The notes below the pieces were generated by a model. The model did not search any database, was not told where the DNA came from, and saw only the letters and a program-made list of their open reading frames with translations. Made by a program: the position numbers and the translations under genes. A DNA stretch of 36,973 nt from Armatimonadota bacterium. GTDB lineage: Bacteria; Armatimonadota; Chthonomonadetes; Chthonomonadales; CAJBBX01. Below are positions 1 to 21,245 of the stretch, piece after piece (position 1 is the stretch's first letter; each line of letters opens with the position of its first letter). The stretch is from NCBI GenBank assembly GCA_026392115.1, contig JAPLCQ010000034.1, positions 1 through 36,973 on the forward strand, in the 5' to 3' direction.

Positions 1-1
1 T

Positions 2-52
2 GGCGCGCAAGGACGGGACAGGGCTGACCGGCTGTCAAAGGAGGAAACATGA
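2..52 (+). CDS. possible C-terminal end of an upstream gene (partial)
   Basis: A reading frame is open from the left edge and stops at a TGA at 50-52 that overlaps the ATG of the next gene as ATGA. Its 16 residues (ending in SKEET) are too few to identify. The only support is the overlap, which is typical of translational coupling. The frame may be open by chance. Confidence 0.2.
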   Translation, partial: GAQGRDRADRLSKEET

Positions 53-870
53 GCATCACCATCGAACCGCTGTCGCCCTTTGTCGGCGCGGAGATATGCG
101 GCATCGACCCGCGCCTGCCCCTGGACTACTACCTCGACCTCCTGCGCGCCGCCAAGCGAGCCCGACCGGACGCCTGCGTCAAGGCGTTCACGGCCGTGGA
201 GATCGACCAGATCGCCCGCGTCGCCGGCCGGACCGTACCCAAGACCCTCGAACTGCTGATGGAGGCCGGTCTGGGCGCGGTGCCCGGCGGCGGCGCCGAG
301 GTCTTGTCCGATCGCGTGCACGGCCTGCTCCACCCCAACAAGCTGACGCCGAGCCAGTGGATCGGCATCTCCCGGCAGGTGGCGGCGGCGGGCTTGCCGC
401 AGTACGCCACGATGCTGTTCGGGCATGTGGAGACGGCGGAGGAGCGGGTGGACCACCTGCTGGCCCTTCGCGCGCTTCAGGACGAGACCGGACACCTGCT
501 GGCCCTGACCCCGCTGGCGTTCCACCCGGAGGGCACCTACCTGTCGCACCTGCCTGCCCCGACGGGAATGGACGATCTCCGCATGGCCGCCGTGTCCCGC
601 GCCCTGCTGGACAACGTGGCGCACATCAAGTCGTTCTGGGTCATGAGCACGGTTCAGGTCTCGCAGATTTCGCTCTGGTACGGCGCCGACGACATCGACG
701 GCACCGTGCAGGAGTACGAGATCACTTTCCCCGAGGGCCGCCTGGGCCACACCTCGCAAAGCCTCTCCCGCACAGAGCTGGAGGCGCTGATTATCGAGGC
801 GGGCCGCATGCCCGTGGAGCGCGACACGCTCTACCGGCCCGTTGCGCCGGTGGAGGCCCGCAATGGGTGA
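49..870 (+). CDS. mqnE: MqnE-like (aminofutalosine synthase) C-terminal part with a TauD-like N-terminus; radical-SAM domain missing
   Basis: From about residue 27 to the end (273 aa) the protein reads as the C-terminal two-thirds of MqnE, the radical-SAM enzyme that makes aminofutalosine in the futalosine menaquinone pathway. Visible family signatures are YYLDLLR, KAFTAVEI, the PGGGAE loop, DETG and FHPEGT. Residues 1-20 (MSITIEPLSP FVGAEICGID) do not belong to MqnE; they look like the start of a TauD/TfdA dioxygenase. The two meet in PRLPLD, which fits both families (bases about 106-126). The CxxxCxxC motif that holds the [4Fe-4S] cluster is absent, and the protein is about 100 residues shorter than usual MqnE, so it should not work as a radical-SAM enzyme. 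The start has a strong Shine-Dalgarno (AAAGGAGGAAAC). The stop overlaps the mqnC start by 8 bases. It is a chimera by deletion or an assembly join; I cannot tell which. Confidence 0.8.
   Translation: MSITIEPLSPFVGAEICGIDPRLPLDYYLDLLRAAKRARPDACVKAFTAVEIDQIARVAGRTVPKTLELLMEAGLGAVPGGGAEVLSDRVHGLLHPNKLTPSQWIGISRQVAAAGLPQYATMLFGHVETAEERVDHLLALRALQDETGHLLALTPLAFHPEGTYLSHLPAPTGMDDLRMAAVSRALLDNVAHIKSFWVMSTVQVSQISLWYGADDIDGTVQEYEITFPEGRLGHTSQSLSRTELEALIIEAGRMPVERDTLYRPVAPVEARNG
852..856 (+). promoter_or_regulatory. ribosome binding site of mqnC
   Basis: GGAGG lies six bases before the ATG at 863, inside the end of the preceding gene. It favours 863 over the TTG at 842 as the mqnC start. Confidence 0.6.
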
Positions 871-1966
871 ACTGCAACCGCGTAGCGGCTCCCTTGGCGA
901 CGCCCTCGCCCGTGCGGCGAACGGAGGGCGGCTGACCGCCGACGAGTGCCTGGCGGCGGCCCAGAGCGCCGACCTGCTGCAACTAGCCGCCGCAGCCGAT
1001 GCCGTGCGCCGGCGGCTGAACCCGGCGCAGGTCGTCACCTACGTGGTCGGCCGCAACGTCAACTACACCAACGTCTGCTGGGTGCGGTGCAAGTTTTGCG
1101 CGTTCTACCGCGTGCCCGGCTCCGACGCCGGCTATGTGCTCCCGCTGGAGGCCATCCTTCAGAAGATCGAGGAGATGGTCGACGCGGGCGGCGCCGAAGT
1201 GCTCCTGCAGGGCGGCCTCAACCCCTCGCTCAAGATCGACTGGTTCGAGGAGCTCTTCCGAACCGTGAAGCGGCGCTTCGCCGGCAAGACGGTCACGCTT
1301 CATGCCCTATCGCCTGCCGAGGCGATCTATATCGCCCGGATCAGCCGCCTGACCCTATCGGAGACACTCGGCCGCCTGCGGGCGTCCGGCCTGGACAGCA
1401 TGCCCGGCGGCGGCGCCGAGATTCTGACCGACCGCGTTCGGCACGCGATCTCGCCCTATAAGGACACTGCCGACGAGTGGATCGACTGCATGCGCGTCGC
1501 ACACGGCCTCGGCATCCGGACCACGGCAACGATGATGTACGGCTCCATCGACACCTGGGAGGACCGCGTCGAGCACCTGATGCGGCTCCGCGACCTCCAG
1601 GATGAGACCGGCGGCTTCACGGCCTTCATCCCCTGGTCGTTCCAGCCGGACGGCACCGAGCTGGGCGGCTCGCGGGCCAGCGCCGTCGACTACCTGCGCA
1701 CCGTGGCCGTTTCGAGGCTGGCGCTGGACAACGTGCCGCACCTGCAGGCGTCGTGGGTGACCCAGGGGCCCCGCGTGGCGCAGATCGCCCTGGGCTACGG
1801 ATTGGACGACTTCGGCTCAACCATGATGGAAGAGAACGTGGTCTCTGCCGCGGGTTGCCGGTTCACCATGCCCATTGAGGAGCTGGAACGGCAGATTCGA
1901 GCGGCGGGATATGAGCCGATTCGCCGAACCACCCAGTACGAGCCCATATTCGGTCCCAAAGCCTGA
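863..1966 (+). CDS. mqnC: cyclic dehypoxanthine futalosine synthase MqnC
   Basis: Radical-SAM enzyme that closes the spiro ring of dehypoxanthine futalosine in menaquinone biosynthesis. The 367-aa product has an intact cluster motif (C72, C76, C79 in CWVRCKFC), then LLQGGLNP, a PGGGAEI loop near residue 180, DETGGF, and a C-terminal QIALGYGLDDFGSTMMEENV segment typical of MqnC. Length is normal. The ATG at 863 is preceded by GGAGG and overlaps the stop of the mqnE-like gene, so the two are translationally coupled. MqnE and MqnC are paralogues, so the shared PGGGAE/DETG motifs are expected. mqnD lies 5.3 kb away on the opposite strand. Confidence 0.93.
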   Translation: MGELQPRSGSLGDALARAANGGRLTADECLAAAQSADLLQLAAAADAVRRRLNPAQVVTYVVGRNVNYTNVCWVRCKFCAFYRVPGSDAGYVLPLEAILQKIEEMVDAGGAEVLLQGGLNPSLKIDWFEELFRTVKRRFAGKTVTLHALSPAEAIYIARISRLTLSETLGRLRASGLDSMPGGGAEILTDRVRHAISPYKDTADEWIDCMRVAHGLGIRTTATMMYGSIDTWEDRVEHLMRLRDLQDETGGFTAFIPWSFQPDGTELGGSRASAVDYLRTVAVSRLALDNVPHLQASWVTQGPRVAQIALGYGLDDFGSTMMEENVVSAAGCRFTMPIEELERQIRAAGYEPIRRTTQYEPIFGPKA

Positions 1967-2020: not shown

Positions 2021-3157
2021 ATGAGGGCGGCTATGAGCGTCCGCAGTTTCGAGCAGTGGTTCGGTGCGCTGGTCCTTCTCTGCATGACGGCGATGGGCAT
2101 CACCGCGGGCAGCGTCGTCCGGTGGCCGGCCTACGGCTCGCTCCCCAGCTTCGATCAGCTCTGCCAGACGTACCCCGTCTACCGTTCGTTCACCGTTGCC
2201 GCCTTCGGCATCATCGGCATCGTCAGCGGGGCTGTGCTCGGGCCCAAGCTGGGTGCGGCGCTGGTGCGGCTGGGCAACGCCATCGACCAGATGTCGGCGC
2301 GCGACAAGGTGGCGGCGGTCGTCGGCGTCCTGTTGGGCCTGTTGGTGACGGCCCCGGTCATGCTCCTGCTCCATGGGATATCCCGTTTCGGCGTCCTCAT
2401 CTCTCTGGTTTTGGGCGTGGCCTTCGTCTACCTGGGCGTTCGCTACGCCCTTGGTATGGGCGACCAGCTCTCGGCGCTCTTCTTCCCCCACGCCCGCCCC
2501 GAGCACGGCGCCCTGCCCGCGGTTGCGCCCACCTCGTGCAAGATACTCGACACCAACGTCATCATCGACGGGCGCATCGTCGACGTCTGCCGAGCGGGGT
2601 TCATCGAGGGGACGCTCTACGTGGCGGGCTTCGTCCTCGACGAACTCCAGCACATCGCCGATGCCGCCGATCCCCAACGGCGGGCCCGCGGCCGGCGCGG
2701 CCTCGACATGCTGGCCGAACTCCAGGCGGACTACCCCCTGCTCGTCCGCACGCTTGACCACTTCCTGCCCGATCGAGCGCCTCGCGAGGTTGATGGGCGC
2801 CTCGTGGTGCTGGCCAAGCGCCTGAACGGCACGATCGTCACCAACGACTTCAACCTCAACAAGGTCGCGTCGCTACAGGGCGTCTCGGTGATGAACATCA
2901 ATGAGCTCGCCAACGCCCTCAAGGCTGTGATGCTTCCCGGCGAGGAGATGCGCGTGAGCGTGATCCGCGAAGGGAAGGAACCGAACCAGGGCGTAGCGTA
3001 TCTAGACGACGGGACCATGATCGTCATCGATGATGGCCGCAAGCACATCGGCGCAGATGTGGAGGTCACCGTGACCAGCGCACTCCAGACCTCTGCCGGC
3101 AAGATGGTCTTCGCGCGGCTCAAGCCCAGGCTCGAGCGCGCCAGAGACGCGGAATGA
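2021..3157 (+). CDS. YacL-type membrane protein with PIN and TRAM domains
   Basis: Four hydrophobic segments (about residues 13-33, 54-73, 96-118 and 124-142) anchor a cytoplasmic PIN domain that begins at KILDTNVIIDGRI (acidic D177, D183). It continues with LDELQHIAD and TNDFNLNKVA, which carry further acidic metal ligands of the PIN nuclease fold. A C-terminal TRAM-like RNA-binding segment (about 310-370) follows. This is the architecture of Bacillus YacL. The biochemical target is not established, but the PIN fold suggests an RNase. The start at 2021 has GAGGTGA four bases upstream; an ATG at 2033 is possible. The stop overlaps ispDF as ATGA. The yacL-ispD-ispF order is also seen in Bacillus, which supports orthology. 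Confidence 0.88.
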   Translation: MRAAMSVRSFEQWFGALVLLCMTAMGITAGSVVRWPAYGSLPSFDQLCQTYPVYRSFTVAAFGIIGIVSGAVLGPKLGAALVRLGNAIDQMSARDKVAAVVGVLLGLLVTAPVMLLLHGISRFGVLISLVLGVAFVYLGVRYALGMGDQLSALFFPHARPEHGALPAVAPTSCKILDTNVIIDGRIVDVCRAGFIEGTLYVAGFVLDELQHIADAADPQRRARGRRGLDMLAELQADYPLLVRTLDHFLPDRAPREVDGRLVVLAKRLNGTIVTNDFNLNKVASLQGVSVMNINELANALKAVMLPGEEMRVSVIREGKEPNQGVAYLDDGTMIVIDDGRKHIGADVEVTVTSALQTSAGKMVFARLKPRLERARDAE

Positions 3158-4323
3158 CCGTTGCCGCCATCGTCCCGGCGGCGGGCCGGGGCGCGCGATT
3201 CGGCGGCCCTGAGAACAAGATCTGGGTCGACATAGGGGGTCGGCCCCTGATCCAGTGGACGCTCAGGGCGCTGGAGACGCATCCGGGCATCGACAGCCTC
3301 GTCATCGTCGGGGCGCCCGATGAGCTGGACCGCCTCCGCGACGCCGCGGCGGCTCCGGCCAAACCGACGCGGATCGTCGCAGGGGGCGCCACGCGGGCCG
3401 AGTCTGTGCTGCGCGGGCTTGAGAGCCTCGACGCCGGCGTTCAAACGGTGTTGGTACACGACGCCGCGCGACCGGCCGTGCCGCCGGACCTCATCGACCG
3501 CGTGCTGGCCGGTGTCCGCAGCCATGGCGCCGCGATCCCCGGCATGCCCTGTACGGACACGGCCAAGGTTTGCGACCCGCAGGGCCGCGTTGAGGCCACG
3601 CTGGACCGTTCGCGGATCGCCCTGGTCCAGACGCCGCAGGGCTGCCGCCGCGACCTGCTCGAACGGGCCTACCGCGTTGCCGGAGCCGCCGCCAACGGAA
3701 CGACCGACGAGGCGTCGCTGCTGGAGCGTGCCGACATACCGGTGCATGTCGTGGCGGGCGACGCCGCCAACGTCAAGGTGACCCTGCTGGCGGACCTAGC
3801 CGCGGTGAGGCGGGCGCTGATCGGCCGCGGGTCCGGCGAGGTCCGGACGGGTCTCGGTTACGACGTGCACCGCCTCGCGTCCGGGCGTGAGCTCTGGCTG
3901 GGCGGCGTGCGCATAGAGCATGACCAGGGGCTCGAAGGGCATTCGGACGCCGACGTGGTGGTCCACGCCGTCTGCGACGCACTCCTGGGCGCGGCAGGTC
4001 TGGGCGACATCGGCCTGCTCTTCCCGCCGGGCGATCCGGCACACCGAAACCGGCGCAGCACCGAGTTTCTGGCCGAAATCGGACCCAGGCTACGGGCGGC
4101 GGGATGGCTGGTGACGAACATCGACGCGGCGGTGCTGGCCGAGGCGCCCCGGCTGGCCCCGCATCGAACCGCCATGGCCGAGGCCATGGCGCAGGCGCTG
4201 GAACTCGAAGCGAAGCGGATCAGTATTAAAGCCACTACATCGGAGGGACTGGGCCCCGTGGGTCGCCGAGAGGGTATCGGTTGCTGGGCCGTAGCGACCC
4301 TGCAGCGGGCCGAGGAGCAGTAG
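3154..4323 (+). CDS. ispDF: bifunctional IspD/IspF (MEP isoprenoid pathway)
   Basis: A 389-aa fusion of two MEP-pathway enzymes. Residues 1 to about 228 are IspD (CDP-ME synthesis): PAAGRGARFGG nucleotide loop, VHDAARP at 101-107, VQTPQG at 158-163 and TDEASLL. Residues about 230-389 are IspF (MEcPP synthase): GLGYDVHRL with metal ligands D237 and H239, GHSDADVVVH ending in H271, and KATTSEGLG near the end. The usual IspD PKQ after the glycine loop is replaced by NKIW, keeping the lysine. The two halves are directly fused with no IspE between them. The start overlaps the PIN-TRAM stop by four bases, so the genes are one transcription unit. Confidence 0.95.
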   Translation: MTVAAIVPAAGRGARFGGPENKIWVDIGGRPLIQWTLRALETHPGIDSLVIVGAPDELDRLRDAAAAPAKPTRIVAGGATRAESVLRGLESLDAGVQTVLVHDAARPAVPPDLIDRVLAGVRSHGAAIPGMPCTDTAKVCDPQGRVEATLDRSRIALVQTPQGCRRDLLERAYRVAGAAANGTTDEASLLERADIPVHVVAGDAANVKVTLLADLAAVRRALIGRGSGEVRTGLGYDVHRLASGRELWLGGVRIEHDQGLEGHSDADVVVHAVCDALLGAAGLGDIGLLFPPGDPAHRNRRSTEFLAEIGPRLRAAGWLVTNIDAAVLAEAPRLAPHRTAMAEAMAQALELEAKRISIKATTSEGLGPVGRREGIGCWAVATLQRAEEQ

Positions 4324-7233: not shown

Positions 7234-7245
7234 GGGCGCCTCAGT
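7229..7245. terminator. short inverted repeat spanning two convergent stop codons
   Basis: ACTGAGG (7229-7235) and CCTCAGT (7239-7245) form a perfect 7-bp stem with a 3-base loop. The TGA of the small + strand gene and the TGA of mqnD on the - strand each lie in one arm. There is no T-tract, so it is only a weak terminator candidate, but it would serve both directions. Confidence 0.35.
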
Positions 7246-8113
7246 CCACGAAGTCGATCTCGCCCACGCTGGGGGCCAGGCCGCGGTTCCGAGCTTCCTC
7301 CAGGAACAGGCGGATGCTCCGCTTGCCCGCCTCGCCCATGTCCACGGTCCAACTGTTCACGTACATACCCACGAACCGGTCGGCGGTGGCGGCGGGCATG
7401 TCGCGGGCAAACGTCAGCGCGTAGTCCAGAGCGTTCGAGCGCTGGTCCAGCCCGAGGACGATGCTTTTCTTGATGTCTCGCGAGATCGTGGCGGCCAGGT
7501 CGACGGCAAGGTCGCGCCGGATCGCGTTGACGCCGAGCGGCAACGGCAGGCCCGTCCGCTCCTTCCACCAGACCCCCAGGTCCACGGCAAGGCTCAGCCC
7601 CGCATCGGCATAGGTGAGCTGCCCCTCGTGGATGAGGAGGCCCGCATCGACCTCGCCGGCGATCACCGCTGGCATGATGGCGTCAAAGGGCATCACGCGG
7701 TAGCGCACGGCCCCTTCGCCCCCCGCGGTCCCCTCCTCCACCATGGGCTCGTCGAGGTAGAGCGAAAGGGCCAAGTAAGCGCTGGTCATGAGGCCCGGTA
7801 TAGCTACAACCTTGCCGCGCAGGTCTGCCGCAGCGGCGGGCCGCGCGGTAACGACCATGGGGCCGTAGCCGTCGCCCATGCTGGCGCCGTGAGTCAGGAT
7901 CGCGTACCGGTCGGCCACGTAGGCGTAGGCATGCACCGAGATCGCGGTTGTCTCCAGCAGGCCGTCGCGCGCCCATTCGTTGAGCGTCTGGATGTCCCGC
8001 AGCACATGCTCGTAGTCGATGCCCGGGGTCTGTACAGAGCCCGACGCGAGGCCGTAGAACATGAAGGCGTCATCGGAGTCGGGGCTGTGGCCAATGCGGA
8101 CGAGGGTGGACAT
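7241..8113 (-). CDS. mqnD: 1,4-dihydroxy-6-naphthoate synthase MqnD
   Basis: 290 aa. It converts cyclic dehypoxanthine futalosine, the MqnC product, to 1,4-dihydroxy-6-naphthoate. It has the periplasmic-binding-protein-like fold of the family: GHSPDSDDAFMFYGLA at the N-terminus, the VSVHAYAYV-like segment (ISVHAYAYVADRY), a YGPMVVTARP strand and LIHEGQLTYADAGL, which includes the conserved histidine region. It is separated from mqnC by six unrelated genes and lies on the opposite strand. The start has GGAAGG about ten bases upstream. Confidence 0.92.
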   Translation of the reverse strand: MSTLVRIGHSPDSDDAFMFYGLASGSVQTPGIDYEHVLRDIQTLNEWARDGLLETTAISVHAYAYVADRYAILTHGASMGDGYGPMVVTARPAAAADLRGKVVAIPGLMTSAYLALSLYLDEPMVEEGTAGGEGAVRYRVMPFDAIMPAVIAGEVDAGLLIHEGQLTYADAGLSLAVDLGVWWKERTGLPLPLGVNAIRRDLAVDLAATISRDIKKSIVLGLDQRSNALDYALTFARDMPAATADRFVGMYVNSWTVDMGEAGKRSIRLFLEEARNRGLAPSVGEIDFVD

Positions 8114-18603: not shown

Positions 18604-19134
18604 ATGCCCGTGCCTTCAGGTTACCGCATACGCCCGTTCGAGCCCGGCGACCTGCCCGCGCTGCAGGCGATCACCGTGGAGACCTTCGCGCCGGTCGCTA
18701 TCGACAGGGCCATCGACGATGCGTTCCCCGGCGCCCTGCCCGGCTCCTGGGCCGATCGCAAGGCGGCCGCCATAGCCGACGATTGCCGAACCGAACCCGC
18801 GGGCGTTCTGGTGGTTGTTGACGCCGACGGCGCCATAGCGGGTTATGTGACATCGAGGACGAACCCGACAACCCGCATCGGCTGGATCGCCAACCTAGCG
18901 GTGGGCCAAGGCCACCGTCGCCTGGGTCTCGGGCGCGCCCTGCTGGAAGCCTGCAAAGAGCGCCTGCTGGCGCACGGAATGGTGATCGCCAAGATTGAGA
19001 CGCTGGAACACAACGAGATCGGCCGTGCGCTCTACCCTTCGCTGGGGTTCCGCGAGATCGCACGGCAGGTCCACTACATCGCGCGCCTGACGGACGACGC
19101 GCCCCAAGACGGCGAGGGCAACGACCCATGCTGA
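18604..19134 (+). CDS. GNAT-family N-acetyltransferase
   Basis: 176 aa. The acetyl-CoA loop of motif A is present ([19 protein letters not shown], near residues 98-116), preceded by IGWIANL and followed by [19 protein letters not shown], the usual motif B. N-terminal [14 protein letters not shown] is typical of the RimI-like group. The substrate cannot be predicted. AGAGAGG precedes the ATG. The stop overlaps the start of the metallophosphoesterase gene by seven bases. Confidence 0.85.
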
Positions 19135-21245
19135 TTACAGCCACCATCGCGGCGCTACTGGCCGTGTCTATCCAGAGCACGGGACAGATCGGCGGGTTCT
19201 CGTTCGCGCACATCACCGACACGCACTGCTCCGGCGCAGCCAACGAGGCCGCGCTGAAGCGATGGGTCGCCGCATTGCCGAACCTCTCCACGCGTCCCGC
19301 GTTCGTGGTGAACACAGGGGATATCGCCGAGTTGGGCACGCCCGCCGAATTCGCCAGGTACCGCGCGGCCATCGCGGGTGCGTCCGCGCCGATCCACAGT
19401 GTTCCGGGCAACCACGACGTGCGCTGGGCGCCGCTGGGCAAGGAGGGCTTCACCCAGGGGGTCGGGCCTGCCTACCGCTCCTTCGACCAGGGAGGATGCC
19501 ACTTCGTCCTGCTGGACAGCACCATCGTGCTGGAGCACTGGGGCCACTTCGACGGCGCGCAACTCGCCTGGCTCGAGGGCGACCTGAAGAAGCTGAAGCG
19601 CGGCACGCCGGTCTTCGTCTTCTTCCACCACTGGGTCGGACGCGACAACTCGAACATCGACAACGGCGGCGATCTCCTCCGCATCCTCGCGCCCTACAAC
19701 GTGGCCGGCATCTTCATGGGACACGGGCACAAGGACTGGCACTGGACCACCGCGGGGATCGATTGCTTCATGGCGATGGGCCTCTACCAGGGCTCATGGC
19801 ACCGCATCGACGTGACGGCAGAGACGGCCAGGGTGGTCCTGGTCAAGGAGGCGGGCGAGCAAACGGTGGCCGAGATTCGCCTTCGCAAGCCTGCCCGTCC
19901 TGCACTGAGGCTGACCTGGGACGACCCCGAGGCGCCCAATCTGGCCCGGAGGAGGTTCCTCGCGGTGGTCAGCGGAGCCGACGGCAAGGCCGTGACCGAG
20001 GGCATTCGCGGCGAGTACGCCATCGACAACGGCGCACCGCAGCCGACGCTGGTCGATGCGGCAGCCAAGAAGCCGCGCGGCCTGACAGGCGAGTTTGATA
20101 CCGAGGCGCTGGCGGCCGGCAGCCATACGCTCGGCGTCACGGTGACGATGCCGGACGGCGCATCCGCGTCCAGCGAGATGCCGTTCGCCTATGAGCCCTC
20201 TGACACGCGCCCAACCCTGGCGTGGGAGTTCAAGACAGCCGACACCATCCAGGGCAATCCGACACTGGCCGAGGACCGCCTGCTCTGCCCCAGCTTCGAC
20301 GGCAAGCTCTACTGCCTGAAGGCGGCCACAGGAAGCAAGGCATGGGCGCTGGCCACCGGAGGGGCTCTCTTCTCATCGGCCGCGGTGGCGGATGGTCGCG
20401 TCTTCGTGGGTTCGATGGACCACAAGCTCTACGCCGCCGACCTGAAGACCGGCGCCAAGCTCTGGGCCACCGACATCGGCAGCCCCCTCTTCGCCACGCC
20501 GGCGGTCTGCGGCGGGGTGGTCTGCATCGGCGCGGACAAGGCCATCGTCGGGCTCGATGCCGCTTCAGGCGCGCAGCTCTGGCGCGTGGCGGCGGGAAGC
20601 TTCTTCCAGTCGCGCGCGGCGACCGACAGCACGGCGTTCTACCTGGGAGGCTGGGACAACACGCTCTACGCCATCGAGGCCGCCACGGGAGCGGTGCGCT
20701 GGAAGGCGCGCATGGGGCGCACCAAGGCCGGGGCCATCAGCACCTACTACTCCCCGGCCATCGCATCGCCGACCTGCGGCAACGGGCGCGTCTACGCCGT
20801 GACGAACGACGGCCTGCTCCACTGCCTGGACTCCGCCACCTGCGCCGAGGCGTGGGCCGTGCGGGCGCCGAAAGGCGGCGACGGCTTCGGCTACTCGTCG
20901 CCGCTCCTCCACGAGGGCCGACTCTACCTGGGCGGCCTGGGCGACGCCGGCCGCGGCGACTGCTACTGCCTGGACGCGGCCACAGGCGACCGGGTCTGGC
21001 GTTGCTCCACAGGGGCAGACAACTACGACTCGTCGCCGGCGGCCGTCGGGCCTTGGATTGCCATCGGCTCGGTGCAGCACCGGCTCACCTGGATCGACGC
21101 CAGAACGGGCAAAGCGTGCGGCACGTACGCCGTGGGGGTGGGGTACAGCTTCACCACGCCCTGCGGCTCGGCCGACCTCACCTTCACGGCAGGCATGAGC
21201 GGGATCGTCACGGCGCTGCGGACACCGACGGCGCCGGCGCTGTAA
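19128..21245 (+). CDS. exported calcineurin-like phosphoesterase fused to a PQQ-type beta-propeller
   Basis: 705 aa. A hydrophobic N-terminus (about residues 2-22) looks like a signal peptide or anchor. Residues about 25-235 form a metallophosphoesterase with all the expected motifs: ITDTH, NTGD, GNHD, FFHH and GHGH. A linker with a beta-rich segment (about 250-360) follows. The remaining ~340 residues are PQQ/PQQ-like repeats (YCLKAATGSKAWAL, LYAADLKTGAKLWA, GLDAASGAQLWR, LYAIEAATGAVRWK, CLDAATGDRVWR), a pattern found in beta-propellers such as BamB. The substrate of the phosphoesterase is unknown; I infer that the propeller binds a partner or surface. The start overlaps the acetyltransferase stop by seven bases. 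Confidence 0.87.
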   Translation: MLITATIAALLAVSIQSTGQIGGFSFAHITDTHCSGAANEAALKRWVAALPNLSTRPAFVVNTGDIAELGTPAEFARYRAAIAGASAPIHSVPGNHDVRWAPLGKEGFTQGVGPAYRSFDQGGCHFVLLDSTIVLEHWGHFDGAQLAWLEGDLKKLKRGTPVFVFFHHWVGRDNSNIDNGGDLLRILAPYNVAGIFMGHGHKDWHWTTAGIDCFMAMGLYQGSWHRIDVTAETARVVLVKEAGEQTVAEIRLRKPARPALRLTWDDPEAPNLARRRFLAVVSGADGKAVTEGIRGEYAIDNGAPQPTLVDAAAKKPRGLTGEFDTEALAAGSHTLGVTVTMPDGASASSEMPFAYEPSDTRPTLAWEFKTADTIQGNPTLAEDRLLCPSFDGKLYCLKAATGSKAWALATGGALFSSAAVADGRVFVGSMDHKLYAADLKTGAKLWATDIGSPLFATPAVCGGVVCIGADKAIVGLDAASGAQLWRVAAGSFFQSRAATDSTAFYLGGWDNTLYAIEAATGAVRWKARMGRTKAGAISTYYSPAIASPTCGNGRVYAVTNDGLLHCLDSATCAEAWAVRAPKGGDGFGYSSPLLHEGRLYLGGLGDAGRGDCYCLDAATGDRVWRCSTGADNYDSSPAAVGPWIAIGSVQHRLTWIDARTGKACGTYAVGVGYSFTTPCGSADLTFTAGMSGIVTALRTPTAPAL

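Follow-up and report, generated by a model that had tools for sequence, protein, structure and literature searches.

The first open reading frame of the window raises the question of whether an MqnE homologue has lost its Fe-S domain and begins instead like a TauD/TfdA dioxygenase. The window is the whole stretch of DNA that was analysed, 36,973 nucleotides long, and corresponds to an entire contig, C6 (G000:C6:1-36973), of a genome assembled in 181 contigs and 98.64% complete. The frame runs from an ATG at position 49 to a stop codon at 868-870, encodes 273 amino acids and is preceded by AAAGGAGG. The contig end is 49 bases away from its start. The presence of a contig end at base 1 was missing from the sequence-only reading that had proposed the domain loss, and it is not knowable from the letters alone. 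As judged from the sequence comparisons described below, mqnE is very probably an ordinary gene that has been cut by a break in the assembly and carries a chimeric tip on one of its two ends, and the domain loss would be an artefact.

The open reading frame at the start of the contig

Most of the frame is a piece of MqnE, as had been recognized from the letters. In a profile search, residues 17-265 were aligned with positions 103-351 of the MqnE family (TIGR03700) at 275 bits (E 7.5e-82), which makes the frame the C-terminal two thirds of MqnE from residue 17 onwards. MqnE is the best family for this frame, as the MqnC profile gives 225.7 bits, and the score is under the curated TIGR03700 cut-off of 434.55. 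Profile positions 1-102, the site of the radical-SAM cysteines, are missing, and the CxxxCxxC motif is indeed gone from the frame. MqnE enzymes are radical-SAM aminofutalosine synthases, and this activity is predicted for the gene discussed here.

The likeness of the beginning of the frame to a TauD/TfdA dioxygenase was also borne out. With residues 1-26 as the query, ten PDB sequences were retrieved at E<=10, nine of them TauD/TfdA-type 2-oxoglutarate dioxygenases (best E 0.024). In a plasmid search, 16 of the 20 matches carry a TauD/TfdA family or RdpA annotation, and four are without a listed gene (E 0.4 to 9). Each of these matches is weak because the query has only 26 residues; the agreement among them makes the predicted TauD/TfdA likeness of this stretch convincing. 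Pfam and NCBIfam gave no match for the N-terminal stretch with queries of 47 and 26 amino acids, and the Pfam search of the frame returned CofH_C as the only domain, PF02668 not being found there. The first 20-26 residues resemble the N-termini of known members such as taurine dioxygenase and RdpA. In contrast to those enzymes, the frame has the first 16 to 26 codons only, and no catalytic core follows.

Table 1. Positions of the features discussed, counted from the first base of the window
Feature	Positions	Strand	Basis
Putative foreign contig tip: 48 bases with ribosome-binding site and first 16 codons, TauD/TfdA-like dioxygenase	1..97	+	No homology to the congeners; PDB and plasmid matches
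Stretch fitting both mqnE and TauD (GIDPRLPLD)	98..126	+	98-146 fully identical to G002 mqnE; L063 and L065 agree at 23/30 bases over 97-126
3' part of mqnE (aminofutalosine synthase), genuine piece	98..870	+	TIGR03700 positions 103-351; 692/773 bases identical to G002
mqnC, intact, with CWVRCKFC	863..1966	+	TIGR03699 466.7 bits, above cut-off 428.1; adjoins mqnE in both congeners
mqnD-type menaquinone biosynthesis protein	7241..8113	-	PF02621, 237 bits

The 5' half of mqnE and its place in the congeners

The part of MqnE that the frame lacks lies elsewhere in the same genome. The profile search located TIGR03700 positions 2-83 at 18938-19189 of another contig, C88. This contig is 19194 bases long, so the piece runs off its end. 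The 5' part of mqnE is formed by the last 317 bases of C88, 105 codons plus two bases with an open 3' end. It contains the radical-SAM CxxxCxxC motif as CNKGCRFC, and gyrB is located upstream. The protein search and the TIGR03700 profile search of this genome matched only mqnC, the frame at 49-870, the C88 fragment and one weak match of 11 bits. A second full mqnE, which had been put forward as one way out, was thus not found by either search.

In both congeners (G001 and G002), gyrB, mqnE and mqnC are contiguous, and mqnE is intact, encoding 380 amino acids with CNKGCRFC (G002 L053:5115-6257; G001 L054:14406-15548, minus strand). The end of C88 and C6 from base 98 are found on one contig in each congener, in the same order and orientation. 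In G002, a single contig spans the last 5.4 kb of C88 at 88.1% identity, the compared G002 stretch beginning there, and then covers C6 from base 95 at 86.8% (first 8 kb of C6 searched). In G001, the identity is 89.1% over 4.8 kb at the C88 end and 87.9% in C6 from base 100. In both congeners, 53 bases lie between the C88 terminus and C6 base 98. As 317 + 53 = 370, base 98 falls on codon position two, in the same phase as in the frame at 49-870, and the reading frame is kept. At their opposite ends, the two contigs also follow G002: bases 1-3000 of C88 do so without a break (90.0%), and of the last 2974 bases of C6 the first 1425 do so, bar one indel, until the G002 contig ends.

The claim that this homologue had lost its Fe-S domain is not supported by these comparisons. 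The Fe-S part is located at the end of C88. A full mqnE at this locus, named in the sequence-only reading as a finding that would overturn the claim, is present in both congeners and, in two pieces, in the genome under study. Taken together, the C88 end and C6 98-870 correspond to the intact 380-amino-acid congener protein minus the 53-base assembly gap, and nothing biological was seen that sets them apart from MqnE. The intact G002 protein is itself best assigned to MqnE (382.3 bits with TIGR03700, 300.5 with MqnC), and as its score is also below 434.55, that threshold is a strict one for the lineage. In each of the 29 relative mqnE loci that were retrieved as DNA, to which the motif count is confined among the listed relative genomes, a single open frame with CxxxCxxC spans the two halves. 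mqnC adjoins mqnE in 10 of these loci, and gyrB is present within the available flank in six. As a side observation, given the score of G002 L053:5115-6254 (382.3 against 434.55), mqnE genes of this lineage may escape automatic annotation.

The apparent Fe-S loss is almost certainly a feature of the assembly and not of the biology. The cell would carry an unbroken mqnE that is interrupted in the assembly alone: C88 would end with the first 105 codons and two further bases, about 53 bases would be missing, and the remainder would start at C6 base 98.

The tip of the contig and alternative explanations

Homology to the congeners is lost sharply at base 97/98. Downstream, C6 follows G002 to the end of the gene, at first without a mismatch (Table 1). 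Upstream, bases 1-97 agree with the syntenic G002 stretch at 26 of 97 positions, which is the chance level (mean 26.2, s.d. 4.3, for all positions when the stretch is slid without gaps along 20 kb of G002). Over bases 1-96 (12-base bins summed), G001 and G002 have 83 of 96 positions in common, and C6 matches G002 and G001 at 26 of 96 each.

These 97 bases would be a chimeric tip that stems from the 5' end of some TauD/TfdA-type gene. The junction had been placed at 106-126. Congener homology starts slightly earlier, at base 98, and, with letters common to a TauD gene, the join could lie as far downstream as about base 126. The TauD-like genes of two alphaproteobacterial MAGs, L063 and L065, read GVDPRRPLD here, and their likeness to the window offers a way for a TauD gene and mqnE to share a stretch permitting a wrong join. 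The join would have been made where the two genes have similar letters, around GGCATCGACC, either by a step of the assembler or through a read or library molecule that was itself chimeric. The sequence-only reading had also allowed for an artefact caused by a shared k-mer; the artefact stands, as a split gene with a foreign tip, and the k-mer is only a plausible cause of it.

Chimeric contig ends are known from metagenome assemblies; passages on contig-end errors in PMC7953547 and PMC6843070 were consulted, and PMC7953547 describes the addition of wrong sequence during contig extension. The misjoins in that paper lie within one viral genome, whereas the donor of the C6 tip seems to be another organism.

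The donor was searched for at several levels. The sequence-only reading had suggested looking for a TauD gene truncated at the same point, and PF02668 gave no match at E<=10 in the genome under study, an E. coli control being detected. No PF02668 match was obtained in either congener at E<=0.001, and TauD is present in five of 61 relative genomes. As there is no TauD gene in the bin, the tip most likely comes from another organism in the sample. No other copy of the 97 bases exists in the genome, and this single copy rules out a stretch common to another of its contigs. Apart from its own contig, the tip matches only 22 bases among the relatives, in G027, where the frame agrees over seven residues and then differs; this match was taken as chance. 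A degenerate pattern derived from the TauD-like motif of the tip retrieved 30 stretches in public genomes. Most of these read as dioxygenase starts, which is favoured by the way the pattern was built. None fits as the donor, the best DNA match being partial (49 of 66 bases, L063).

Some observations speak against an artefact. The tip looks like a gene, as its start codon and ribosome-binding site are intact and the reading frame continues through the join. In addition, the donor search gave partial DNA matches at best, and the two contig ends are without overlap, C88 breaking off 53 bases before the join. A real TauD start would bring its start codon and ribosome-binding site along, and an in-frame join is expected by chance one time in three, or more often if the genes were joined at similar codons. 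The same in-frame join behind a start codon and ribosome-binding site, together with a bin that holds no other full mqnE, would fit a real rearrangement in the strain, which would have cut mqnE, attached the 3' part to the start of a TauD gene and left the pathway broken or dependent on another enzyme. Such an event is very unlikely, as the supposed breakpoint is no more than about 100 bases from the ends of both C88 and C6, and each part keeps its expected neighbour, gyrB or mqnC. Moreover, the remainder of TauD is not found in the bin, and the remaining MqnE part has an open frame and matches G002 at 692 of 773 bases. A genuine fusion gene in the strain or a sub-population, with a TauD start joined in frame to the radical-SAM barrel, would give an MqnE-like protein without an Fe-S cluster; it is likewise highly improbable. 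The least probable reading is a mixture of strains, most cells having an intact mqnE and a minority the rearranged form. The assembler would have broken where the assembly graph forks, which would account for two contig ends here, and the split is indeed observed, but a TauD gene able to supply the tip is present neither in the genome under study nor in the two congeners, in which the tip is without a match.

With mqnE split by the assembly and fused to a chimeric tip, the enzyme would work as in the relatives, and a normal MqnE step is again expected in this genome. The case serves only as a caution: a gene that seems to lack its catalytic domain where a contig stops may have been split, and the remaining contig ends should be searched for the other half before the pathway is declared broken.

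Other menaquinone genes and neighbours

mqnC had been described as intact, and its profile score agrees with this (Table 1). The PF02621 protein encoded on the minus strand is one that we take to be MqnD, not MqnA; a second PF02621 gene is located on contig C22. For MqnB (futalosine nucleosidase), no gene above the TIGR03664 cut-off was found in the genome, and a different enzyme may carry out the nucleosidase step. The only two matches to this profile, of 30.7 and 23.4 bits, are both in one open reading frame (L089, G000:C85:10109-10633). At positions 3154-4323 of the window, IspD and IspF are fused in a single open reading frame (PF01128 then PF02542), which is a known kind of fusion.
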